Assembly (NCBI RefSeq): GCF_000025625.1
Contig: NC_013922.1
Span: 868,001 to 932,000 of the forward strand
DNA: 64,000 bases
Source: Natrialba magadii ATCC 43099
GTDB taxonomy: Archaea; Halobacteriota; Halobacteria; Halobacteriales; Natrialbaceae
Reading direction: 5' to 3'
Part shown: positions 19,905 to 45,298 of the stretch, piece by piece
Numbering within the stretch: the first letter of the stretch is position 1
Layout: every line of letters begins with the position of its first letter
Notes under the pieces: generated by a model
The model's database searches: none
What the model saw: only the letters and a program-made list of their open reading frames with translations
What the model was told of the DNA's origin: nothing
Made by a program: the position numbers and the translations under genes

Positions 19905-20177
19905 TCAGTCCCACCGACAGCGTCGATGCTGCCTCCGTCTGTGGTCACGTCCGTAGGGGGCACTCGAGACGGATTCTGCGTCGACGAGCAGGACCTCTGG
20001 TGGTGCACGACAGCCACAGGGTGCTGCGGTCGCTGTCGTGGGACCGTGGATCGTCACGGTTGTCACTGACTGTCCGCAGATCGGGCAGTCGGGGAGGGGT
20101 GGTGGAGATGAGGGTGAGGGAGAGTGTGACGGCTGGTCGTCGGCTGCGTCTCCGGCGGTGTCACCGGTATCGCTCAT
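19905..20177 (-). CDS. Small CPxC/PCGC zinc-finger protein, cassette copy 1
   Basis: 90 residues (a second ATG at 20180 would add one Met). A low-complexity acidic/Pro-Ser N-terminus leads to LPDCPICGQSVT then, 17 residues on, TAAPCGCRAPPEV: four or five cysteines able to bind one zinc. The C-terminal tail is basic (DHRRRQHRRCR). It shares the core LPxCPxC...PTxAxAxPCGCRxxP with the gene at 43819-44211, and both are divergent from the same RNA-like unit. Such small zinc fingers in haloarchaea often bind nucleic acid or partner proteins; the role here is unknown. Confidence 0.65.
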   Translation of the reverse strand: MSDTGDTAGDAADDQPSHSPSPSSPPPLPDCPICGQSVTTVTIHGPTTATAAPCGCRAPPEVLLVDAESVSSAPYGRDHRRRQHRRCRWD

Positions 20178-20253
20178 CATTGCCTCCGAACACTGCCTGT
20201 ACGGACCACCGTGGGGAAGCTAGCGGTGATACTCGAAGTGGACGATACGTCGG

Positions 20254-20278
20254 TCGTGCGGGATGTTTATGTCCCGGT
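20254..20278 (+). promoter_or_regulatory. Conserved promoter with palindrome over the TATA box, copy 1
   Basis: The 25 bp match the block at 44270-44294 at 23 positions. Arms CGGGA (20259-20263) and TCCCG (20272-20276) flank GTTTAT, a TATA box 25-28 bp upstream of the structured unit at 20294. A dyad placed directly on the TATA box would suit an operator that blocks TBP binding. The bound factor is unknown. Confidence 0.65.
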
Positions 20279-20293
20279 AGAATGAACGGAATC

Positions 20294-20391
20294 ATGGCTA
20301 CAAACCCTCCCTGGGGTTTGGAAGCCACGTCTCGGGTGTCTTCAGCACCCGGGGCAGTTCGCATATGCCCGTTGTGGCTTCCGTTCTAATA
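20294..20391 (+). ncRNA. Structured RNA of unknown family, cassette copy 1
   Basis: Starts where the promoter predicts. Helices: AAACCC (20302-20307) with GGGTTT (20314-20319); closing helix GGAAGCCAC (20320-20328) with GTGGCTTCC (20374-20382). Inside the closing helix are CGGGTG/CACCCG (20333-20338 with 20346-20351) and GGGCA/TGCCC (20352-20356 with 20366-20370). Copy 2 at 44310 keeps all of these with compensating changes. An ATG-to-TAA frame of 31 codons spans the unit, but its middle is in a different frame from that of copy 2, so RNA rather than a peptide is conserved. The 3' end is not fixed; similarity continues past TTCTAAT to about 20438 (GTTGAC, CTTATA). Confidence 0.6.
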
Positions 20392-20506
20392 GTTGACGTA
20401 AACAGACTTATATCTACTGCTAAGAAACCGATAAAGATGGGCGCACGCCACTCTCGTCAGTAGCGAGTTGAAGCAACTGGGTTACAGAACTGGGTCCAAC
20501 CGATCG

Positions 20507-43058: not shown

Positions 43059-43818
43059 TCGACCGCTACACCAACCAGCGACAGCTATCGCTCGATTGCG
43101 TTGATTTTCATACCCGTGACGTCCTCGTCTTCCCGAACTACTGCTGCTCCGGTGCCTGAACGAATACCCGCCGTGGGCGGACAGCCGGTAGTGAAATCAC
43201 TGCACACTCACTCTCGTAACACTACAAGACGGAATCGGTTCTCGAGATCAGCTCCTCGAGTTGCGAGTTCGGCCTGGGTGGGCTGTGGGTGATGTGGGGG
43301 AAGTGTGAGTGCGCGGAGTGGCTGGTAGCGCGGTGGAGTGCTAGGGTGCTGGCGGGACTGAGAGCCGTCGATCGGCGACTGACAGTCGGTGGTCGAGTGG
43401 CTTCGATGGCTTCGATGGCTTCGATTGTGGTGACACCGTGATCGACAGCGAGTCACCACGGTGGGTTCGAGCTGTCAGTGGGAGCCGGCCGACGGCAACG
43501 AGGCGAAGAACGCCACCCCCAGGGTAACGCCACCCCCGTTGCCAGCACCAGCACACCAACACCATATCGCTACCACACCAGCCCAGCACTCACTCCCACA
43601 CCCACCCAGTGTTCCGCCGCAACTCGAGTTGGTTGAGACGGTTTGGGTTGGGTTGGGTTGGGTTCGGTTCAGTTCGGTTCGGGTCGGCTTGGTTCGGTTT
43701 GAGTCGAACCCAAGTGGGCCAACTCGAGTTGAGCCGAACCGAACCACCTGCTTCCCTGCGGCCGTCACTGGGGGGTCGACGGGAGCGGGAGGGTACTCGA
43801 GTGGTGGTGTGATGGTGG
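43059..43818. other. Gene-free 760 bp with GGTTC/GGGTT repeats
   Basis: No credible gene. Between 43630 and 43750 are runs of GGGTT and GGTTC followed by the complementary CCGAACCGAACC, able to form an imperfect hairpin. Shorter (CTTCGATGG)n repeats lie at 43401-43424. Confidence 0.6.
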
Positions 43819-44211
43819 TTACTGAGTGTGTGAGTTGTTTTGGGTGTCAGTTTGCGTGTCGGGTTGAGTGGCGGGTGCAGTAGCGTGGCCGCGGTCGGTA
43901 TCGTGACCAGTCGCGGATGACGAACCGTCCCGTCCGTTGCGTCGGCGGTTGCGCGCCCGCCGAGCGAATCCTGGGGCGACACGACAGCCGCAGGGGCCGG
44001 CGATGGCTTCCGTGGGGCTGGTCATGCTGGTGCGTGTGACAGGGTGATCACAGCGGGGACAGTTGGGGAGCGAGGTGGTGTCGGGGTCGGGGGTGTAGTC
44101 GGGGTCGAGCCCGAGGGCAGCTTTGAGATCTCGAGTGGTGGTGTACTTGCTGTCAGCGTCAGCGTTCGAGTCCGAGCCCGAGCCCGAGTCGGTATCGGTG
44201 TCGTCACTCAT
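43819..44211 (-). CDS. Small CPxC/PCGC zinc-finger protein, cassette copy 2
   Basis: 130 residues from ATG 44211 (MSDDTDTDSGSGSDSNAD); ATG 44220 would add three residues. Acidic N-terminus, then KYTTTRDLKAALGLDPDY, the zinc core LPNCPRCDHPVT ... IAGPCGCRVAPGF, a basic stretch ARRARNRRRNGR and a Thr/Gln-rich tail. The core matches the gene at 19905 and the promoter side faces the same RNA-like unit. The basic region next to the zinc knuckle suggests nucleic-acid binding. Confidence 0.68.
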   Translation of the reverse strand: MSDDTDTDSGSGSDSNADADSKYTTTRDLKAALGLDPDYTPDPDTTSLPNCPRCDHPVTRTSMTSPTEAIAGPCGCRVAPGFARRARNRRRNGRDGSSSATGHDTDRGHATAPATQPDTQTDTQNNSHTQ

Positions 44212-44269
44212 GGCGACCACCGAGGAAAAATCGCAGTCCTACGGGTAGTTGGGTGCTGTTCGGTGGGTA

Positions 44270-44294
44270 TCGTGCGGGACGTTTATATCCCGGT
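44270..44294 (+). promoter_or_regulatory. Conserved promoter with palindrome over the TATA box, copy 2
   Basis: Same block as 20254-20278: arms CGGGA (44275-44279) and TCCCG (44288-44292) around CGTTTATA. TATA centre at 44285 predicts transcription from about 44310, the first base of the structured unit. Confidence 0.65.
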
Positions 44295-44309
44295 CGGATG
44301 TATGTAATC

Positions 44310-44405
44310 ATGGCTTCAACGCGAGTCGCGTTTTGGAAGCCACGTCTCGGGTGCTGCAACACCCGGGGCACTTTCGTACCCACGTTGTGGCTTCCGTTCT
44401 AATTG
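44310..44405 (+). ncRNA. Structured RNA of unknown family, cassette copy 2
   Basis: Helices: AACGCG (44318-44323) with CGCGTT (44327-44332), which replaces AAACCC/GGGTTT of copy 1 with pairing kept; closing helix GGAAGCCAC (44335-44343) with GTGGCTTCC (44387-44395). Inside it are CGGGTG (44348-44353) with CACCCG (44360-44365), and GGGCAC (44366-44371) with GTACCC (44376-44381), one mismatch. GGCTTC at 44312-44317 can also pair with GAAGCC (44336-44341), competing with the closing helix: a possible switch. Similarity to copy 1 continues to about 44451. The VapB gene lies 245 bp downstream. Confidence 0.6.
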
Positions 44406-44648
44406 TTGACTGGTATTGTCTTATAACTATCGCTGAGGTATCGAATATGATCGCTCGGTTCGTGTTTCGTTTGGGTTGTACTCCGTAGGAACTGTTCTCC
44501 GAGTAGTACGCCACTACGAGCACCGTCGAGGTGAGTGCCGCCGCGTTCCCCAGGCGACGAGAACAGGTTCGTCGAGCACTGGCCCACACCGACCTTGTTA
44601 AACCCTGATGGAACATTTTTGTAATACTGTCTCGTAATACTCGCACGT

Positions 44649-44873
44649 ATGACCACGGTCTCGGCAAAAATTCCAGATGAGATGAAGGAGGAACTCGAAA
44701 AGGAAGATATCAACGTTAGCGAGGTTATCCGTAACGCGCTCGAGGAGGAAATCACCAAGCGCCGGCGCGAGAAACTTCGACGGGATGTCGATTCCCTTCG
44801 AGAGAAGATAGATGACGGTGTTGAAACTGACGAGATCGTTGGAGCGGTTCGTGAAACCCGCCAGGAGAATTAA
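44649..44873 (+). CDS. vapB: VapB-type antitoxin
   Basis: 74 residues: MTTVSAKIPDEMKEELEKE, NVSEVIRNALEEEITKRRRE. A ribbon-helix-helix-like N-terminus with a charged helical tail. The stop overlaps the toxin start (TAATG), a typical VapBC layout, so both are translated from one mRNA. Confidence 0.87.
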   Translation: MTTVSAKIPDEMKEELEKEDINVSEVIRNALEEEITKRRREKLRRDVDSLREKIDDGVETDEIVGAVRETRQEN

Positions 44874-45298
44874 TGTCTGACTATCTCTTTGACGCAAGCT
44901 CGGTGGTAGAACTTCTCATTGGAGAACGCGGCGTCAATGTGGATATTAGTATCCTGTTCGATGAGTATCTGCTCGATTTGACGATGTACGAGGCGGCGAA
45001 TGCACTCTGGAAAACCGGCCTTGCTCACGATAATCTAACTGAGTCTGAATTAGAAGACGCTGTTACTATTCTCTCACGACTTGGTACAGAGGTTCGACTC
45101 GAGACCGTGAGTAACGAAACCCTCACTTCAACGATGGATGTCGCCCAATCAAACGGACTTACGTTCTATGATGCGGCGTATCTTGCAACCGCAGAGCGTA
45201 CTGACCTCACCCTGGTAACTGAAGATAGCGCGCTTCGAACGGCCGCACGTGAGCAAGAGATTCGAGTAGAGAGCGTGCGTACGGATGGCTCACTCTAG
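44873..45298 (+). CDS. vapC: VapC-type PIN-domain toxin
   Basis: 141 residues. PIN acidic residues: D7 (YLFDASS), E40 (TMYEAANAL), D100 (TFYDAAYLA) and D118 (LVTEDSAL), all four present, so a working Mg2+-dependent RNase is likely. VapC toxins cut tRNA or rRNA; the antitoxin just upstream neutralises it. Confidence 0.9.
   Translation: MSDYLFDASSVVELLIGERGVNVDISILFDEYLLDLTMYEAANALWKTGLAHDNLTESELEDAVTILSRLGTEVRLETVSNETLTSTMDVAQSNGLTFYDAAYLATAERTDLTLVTEDSALRTAAREQEIRVESVRTDGSL

Follow-up and report, generated by a model that had tools for sequence, protein, structure and literature searches.

A structured 5' leader with competing folds precedes small zinc-finger genes in Natrialba magadii and its relatives and is probably a translational switch

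Two loci in the 64,000-nucleotide stretch of the Natrialba magadii ATCC 43099 genome analysed here (the window) combine a small zinc-finger gene with a set of inverted repeats, which raises the question of which strand carries the corresponding RNA and what it does for the gene beside it. An earlier reading of the letters alone (the original prediction) had described a duplicated cassette in which the gene diverges from a conserved structured RNA with its own TATA box, the protein and the RNA forming a functional pair. Indeed, both cassettes are present, and the small ORFs with CPxC and PCGC motifs were found on the minus strand of both. The 9-bp helix said to be invariant, GGAAGCCAC/GTGGCTTCC, is identical across the two copies, and the hairpins AAACCC/GGGTTT and AACGCG/CGCGTT differ between them while both pair. 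Our analysis indicates that the element probably forms a structured 5' leader on an mRNA with two ORFs and acts as a translational switch for a small zinc-binding protein. The order of parts in each copy is a TATA box, a leader with a three-way junction (P2, P3 and P4), hairpin P1, the AUG of a short ORF, hairpin P5 and the zinc-finger gene (Table 1).

Table 1 Features of the two copies of the element in the window (positions counted from the first letter of the window)
Feature	Positions	Strand	Remarks
Copy 1, predicted promoter: TATA box CAGTAGATATAAGTC before P2	20407-20412	-	predicted; box conserved in 115 distinct copies
Copy 1, P2 5' strand GGAAGCCAC	20374-20382	-	helix comparison
Copy 1, P4 hairpin GGGCA...UGCCC	20352-20373	-	all 7 P4 pairs of the model change on both sides
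Copy 1, P3 hairpin CGGGUG...CACCCG	20333-20351	-	helix comparison
Copy 1, P2 3' strand GUGGCUUCC	20320-20328	-	possible partners: P2 5' strand or AUG-adjacent repeat
Copy 1, P1 hairpin AAACCC...GGGUUU	20296-20319	-	followed by AUG-adjacent GUAGCC
Copy 1, short ORF, 44 aa, MIPFILPGHKHPARPTYR...	20161-20295	-	end overlaps the zinc-finger start
Copy 1, P5 hairpin CCGGGACAUAAACAUCCCG	20259-20277	-	within the short ORF; 'TATA box' of the original prediction
Copy 1, type A zinc-finger gene	19905-20180	-	CPICG...PCGCR
Copy 2, predicted promoter: TATA box	44420-44425	-	predicted
Copy 2, P2 5' strand GGAAGCCAC	44387-44395	-	
Copy 2, P4 hairpin GGGUAC-GAAA-GUGCCC	44366-44386	-	GNRA tetraloop on the minus strand
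Copy 2, P3 hairpin	44348-44365	-	
Copy 2, P2 3' strand GUGGCUUCC	44335-44343	-	
Copy 2, P1 hairpin AACGCG...CGCGUU	44312-44334	-	followed by AUG-adjacent repeat GAAGCC
Copy 2, short ORF, 35 aa, MITYIRPGYKRPARYPP...	44204-44311	-	stop overlaps the zinc-finger start (ATGAGTGA, offset -5)
Copy 2, P5 hairpin CCGGGAUAUAAACGUCCCG	44275-44293	-	
Copy 2, type A zinc-finger gene	about 43819-44211/44220	-	CPRCD...PCGCR

Right next to copy 2, the plus strand has what looks by eye like a VapBC-type arrangement (44649-45298), with a PIN-like toxin ORF beside a small ORF of antitoxin type, and near-repeats of the type GGTT(C/G)GG lie just past its zinc-finger gene (43640-43745).

The N. magadii genome (4,443,643 bases) contains eight copies of the element, seven with a zinc-finger ORF of the same kind and one with a different Cys-rich ORF. 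A first covariance model gave matches mainly within Natrialbaceae. A second model, R2, had matches in 79 of the 391 genomes searched from the class (67 from Natrialbaceae, 12 from other families), and this frequency, like the eight copies in N. magadii, is far above chance; R2 was built from alignment A11, and alignment A12 includes a few weak opposite-strand or secondary matches. In a sample of 295 genomes from the phylum, nine had matches, and all nine belong to the order of N. magadii. Pairing-preserving copies were recorded in most of the Natrialbaceae genomes searched, throughout that family and beyond. Among the matches listed, the genera are Natrialba, Natrinema, Halovivax, Halopiger, Halostagnicola, Natronorubrum, Natribaculum, Natrarchaeobius, Salinadaptatus and others, all of which we take to be Natrialbaceae.

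The structure itself was evaluated in a model-guided alignment of 109 matches. Here, 94.3% of the cells paired, 22 of 26 pairs changed on both sides and 216 cells were compensated, compared to 85.9%, 11.2 pairs and 51.8 ± 5.5 cells in shuffled controls and at most 49.8%, 10 pairs and 29 cells in controls with slid partners; these figures should not be read as probabilities, since the sequences share ancestry and were aligned by reference to the structure. Hairpin P4, for example, occurs as GGGUAC/GUGCCC, GGACAC/GUGUCC, GGGACGU/ACGUCCC and GGGGCAU/AUGCCCC. Covariation of this strength bears out the proposal of a conserved structured RNA. A long-range pairing of the conserved CGAGAC joint with GUCUCG/GUCCCG of the short ORF was also noticed but is not claimed, as a C.A mismatch is kept in most type A copies. 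The RNA belongs to no named family that we could find, as had been supposed: against Rfam release 15 (4227 families, gathering thresholds) the only match in the window was a tRNA, and 17 loci, including outgroup leaders, gave none. Nothing matching a haloarchaeal leader RNA, upstream ORF or conserved RNA with a zinc finger was found in the open-access journal literature.

Total folding energy favoured neither strand. The base pairs did: on the zinc-finger strand, the P2 cells of the 110 distinct Natrialbaceae cores compared (copies within one genome and among relatives not being independent) comprise 914 Watson-Crick pairs, 54 G.U and 3 A.C, so that a plus-strand reading would turn the 54 G.U pairs into A.C mismatches. 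GNRA and UNCG loops are found on the zinc-finger strand only, with GAAA frequent in P4 and GAGA, GCAA, GCGA or UUCG in P1. Hairpin P5, with the consensus CGGGA[U/C] AUAAAC [G/A]UCCCG inside the start of the ORF, has 64 G.U against 21 A.C cells on the minus strand, and its loop-closing pair is UG (47), UA (32), CG (27) or CA (6). The RNA thus lies on the strand of the zinc-finger gene itself and is not divergent from it.

The supposed TATA box, GTTTATATCCC, is the complement of this covarying hairpin, and in group-B copies the P5 site has lost the TATA letters (CTTTTTG) yet keeps the inverted repeat. A plus-strand TTTATA does stand 22 nt before a conserved ATG in many copies, and convergent transcription is compatible with the sequence alone; given the mismatches that P2 would hold and the identity of the box with P5, however, an RNA transcribed from GTTTATATCCC away from the zinc-finger gene is extremely improbable. 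This G.U/A.C asymmetry, together with P5, led us to reject both model R1, with the RNA on the plus strand, and a TATA promoter on that strand. In 115 distinct copies, the zinc-finger strand carries a conserved TATA-like box (CAGTAGATATAAGTC) between about -37 and -25 from the GGAAG of P2, and its promoter-like character suggests that it serves the leader. Haloarchaeal mRNAs are mostly leaderless, and for this reason the leader promoter and the transcript start are presented as predictions only.

The AUG that follows P1 opens a short ORF, typically of 28-61 aa, which as a rule runs into the zinc-finger start. It is open in every copy in which the anchor was found; the argument that base changes between the copies break the reading frame had been applied to the wrong strand. 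The zinc-finger ORF lies on the same strand as the leader in 108 of 120 copies, and in 104 of these 108, all with a recognised zinc finger, the stop of the short ORF overlaps its start, with offsets of -1 (ATGA, 63 copies), -5 (28 copies) or -7 to -14 (13 copies). The zinc finger is never read in the frame of the short ORF; both remaining frames occur. The same overlap behaviour was observed in a second set from named genomes that partly overlaps the first. Two loci (L059 and L061) retain leader and short ORF with the zinc-finger ORF seemingly partly deleted; in L059 the short ORF is fused to the final part of the zinc finger.

Seen from the genes, 56 of the 62 type A zinc-finger genes in 12 genomes, including all seven in N. 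magadii, have a leader at most 600 nt upstream on the same strand, and none has one on the opposite strand. Hence, tight genetic linkage of the RNA to a zinc-finger gene is supported, whereas a separate RNA transcribed away from the gene is not. A conserved, covarying structure on the coding strand directly upstream of a putatively regulated gene is one hallmark of cis-regulatory leaders. Taken together, the wobble pairs, the GNRA and UNCG loops, the promoter-like TATA box at a fixed distance and the overlap with the zinc-finger ORF assign the RNA to the 5' leader of the zinc-finger operon, where it would most simply act in cis as a switch rather than as a divergent partner RNA.

Such a switch would need two states, and the leader contains a candidate for the second. 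The start codon and the bases just ahead of it (GAAGCCAUG) form a repeat of the P2 5' strand. When the fragment from the P2 3' strand to the AUG was folded, the pairing between the P2 3' strand and the AUG region averaged 7.8 bp, compared to 3.9 bp after the nine bases before the AUG had been shuffled. All but one of the 110 copies reached 4 bp or more in this pairing, and the AUG bases were paired in 91. Folds of the full leader preferred P2 in most copies and the alternative in others; of the two copies in the window, copy 1 has the form with the hidden AUG as its minimum-energy fold and copy 2 the P2 form. By sequence, the two pairings are mutually exclusive and include the start region, as in translational riboswitches.

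The competing pairing is preserved across lineages. Type A-like zinc-finger genes of several other haloarchaeal families are also preceded by structured leaders, and R2 detects further divergent leaders. In these families P2 and the AUG-side repeat differ together, as in CGGAAGCA..UGCUUCCG..CGGAAGCAUG, UACAGGAGC..GCUCCUGUA..UACAGAAGCCAUG, GAGAAC..GGGGUUCUC..AGAACCCAUG and GGAAGA..GGUCUUCC..AAGACCAUG. The matched combinations were equalled by 1 of 20,000 permuted assignments over nine lineages from several families, which were picked after the pattern had been seen and three of which pair weakly (about -6 kcal/mol). Along with the strand, the helices and the operon arrangement, the conserved competing pairing is shown by sequence comparison. 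In another family, three loci (L278, L290 and L295) encode type A-like zinc fingers of about 43 aa (MSRTCPxCG...PCGCTV) with no evident leader.

From these data we infer that the two folds control translation. Transcription from the predicted promoter would produce the three-way junction, in which P2 closes P4 and P3, followed by P1 and the AUG of the short ORF that begins with P5. If the P2 3' strand paired with the P2 5' strand, the start codon would be free; if it paired with the AUG repeat, the start codon would be hidden in an extended P1 hairpin. Anything that stabilises the P2/P3/P4 fold would then leave the AUG accessible, and ribosomes translating the short ORF would be brought to the overlapping zinc-finger start.

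The same domain could also act in trans, as a small RNA or ribonucleoprotein of P2, P3, P4 and P1 that is released or terminated before the short ORF, perhaps with the zinc-finger protein, and works independently of the start codon. It is compact and self-contained, it has the promoter-like TATA box at a fixed distance, and its P1 stems differ among paralogues, as a target-specific part might. The AUG close behind P1, the AUG-side pairing kept across lineages and the P5 hairpin conserved inside the ORF would, however, be unnecessary for a separate RNA, and no obvious terminator was seen between leader and ORF. We therefore consider a trans-acting RNA unlikely.

A further question is whether the short ORF itself is the sensor, with ribosomes stalling at its conserved MIAYILPGYKRPAR region and the leader only setting the initiation rate. 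In favour of this, the copies keep the short ORF open and coupled to the zinc finger, and several of its conserved codons (GGA, TAT, CGT and CTA) rank low in the long ORFs of the window. P5, however, accounts for the same nucleotides, and the divergent leaders L265-L267 keep a P5-like hairpin with an unrelated peptide. Moreover, in several outgroup leaders the short ORF is absent and the AUG is the zinc-finger start itself, which suggests that the short ORF is an added layer. Control by a leader peptide is accordingly very improbable. The short-ORF peptide is probably not the main sensor, given that P5 covers its conserved part and that divergent copies retain the hairpin while encoding another peptide.

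The proteins encoded behind the leader are of several kinds. Type A zinc fingers carry the CPxC and PCGC motifs, and many leader copies in the genus of genome G207 precede a type B protein (CYRCD...YCCxxCAAxMNLS); the two types show no detectable homology (hhalign probability 1.6%). A third small Cys protein and an operon with DUF7344 are also found downstream of leaders, and nearly all of the proteins are small and Cys-rich. Other ORFs follow the four divergent leaders L265-L268; the operon behind L265 encodes a winged-helix-like DUF7344 protein and not a zinc finger. In genome G360 (family f3), nine similar leaders were observed (L331, L336, L338, L341, L343, L345 and L347-L349), several of which precede the third kind of small protein, MIGNEAETCNGVESYQ...RCRNCGRPVR...HRxxCPL. 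The zinc fingers had no Pfam or NCBIfam match above the cut-offs, and a profile search against the PDB returned only short CPxC matches. An AlphaFold model of the zinc finger (mean pLDDT 74.5) had no significant Foldseek match (best E 0.53, mostly ribosomal proteins); therefore, no function was inferred for it.

Two triggers are conceivable: the zinc-finger protein could regulate its own synthesis, or a ligand common to these leaders, for example a metal ion, could act on them. Autoregulation fits the tight linkage. Since a few copies have no recognisable zinc finger or precede other genes such as the DUF7344 operon, autoregulation specific to the zinc finger would not be the whole story. We slightly favour a shared ligand, because seemingly unrelated Cys-rich proteins use one leader class.

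The copy numbers raise the alternative that RNA, short ORF and zinc-finger protein form a selfish, toxin-antitoxin-like addiction or mobile module. There are 8 to 29 copies per genome, the genes overlap, plasmids of Natrialbaceae bear copies, and one genome has four near-tandem copies. The maximum of 29 was found in G207 (3.9 Mb), an unusual expansion (loci L242-L261) in which many copies precede type B proteins; the near-tandem leaders lie in genome G212 (L091:974-5259) at a spacing of 0.9-1.7 kb, and at least two of them are followed by type A zinc fingers. Against a selfish module, searches of phages and viral contigs gave no match to the element, each locus has one RNA unit with no repeat array, and such modules are not known to require a strongly conserved start-codon switch. 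We regard this reading as quite improbable. In type III toxin-antitoxin systems, too, a small protein gene is immediately preceded on its own strand by a structured RNA, but there the antitoxin is a tandem repeat, whereas the element has a single RNA, a start-codon repeat and a coupled short ORF; the protein is a short zinc finger and showed no Pfam or NCBIfam match to a ToxN/AbiQ-like endoribonuclease.

To our knowledge, few cis-regulatory RNAs are known in haloarchaea. The translational switch proposed here resembles translational riboswitches and ribosomal-protein leaders in its structured 5' leader, its alternative pairing that hides the start codon and the adjacent regulated gene. It differs from them in having neither a known ligand or binding protein nor an Rfam match, in its restriction to haloarchaea (in this search) with many copies per genome, and in preceding several families of small Cys-rich proteins, in Natrialbaceae with a short ORF interposed. 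Bacterial leader peptides and conserved upstream ORFs such as ilvB-II (PMC10272879) share the conserved RNA motif and the short ORF ahead of the main gene, but here the short reading frame extends over the start of the main gene, and hairpin P5 coincides with the conserved part of that frame. Small C(P)XCG zinc-finger micro-proteins with CPxC motifs and predicted zinc binding have been described in Haloferax volcanii (PMC11241148, PMC10716476, PMC6562870). Type A proteins are likewise small haloarchaeal proteins with CPxC motifs; unlike those of H. volcanii, they have PCGC as the second motif in place of a second C(P)XCG, often carry long polar tails and have the leader attached. No leader, operon or Natrialba is mentioned in PMC11241148.

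Tentatively, the element may represent an undescribed class of archaeal RNA switch in which the start codon is hidden or exposed and which, many times over in one genome, co-controls small zinc-binding proteins of different families, possibly as a sensor of zinc or another haloarchaeal signal. The competing pairings are specific enough for direct tests by point mutation. The leader gives a functional context to the zinc-finger micro-proteins of haloarchaea and, if our reading is true, these organisms would control a whole set of small proteins by a structured RNA.
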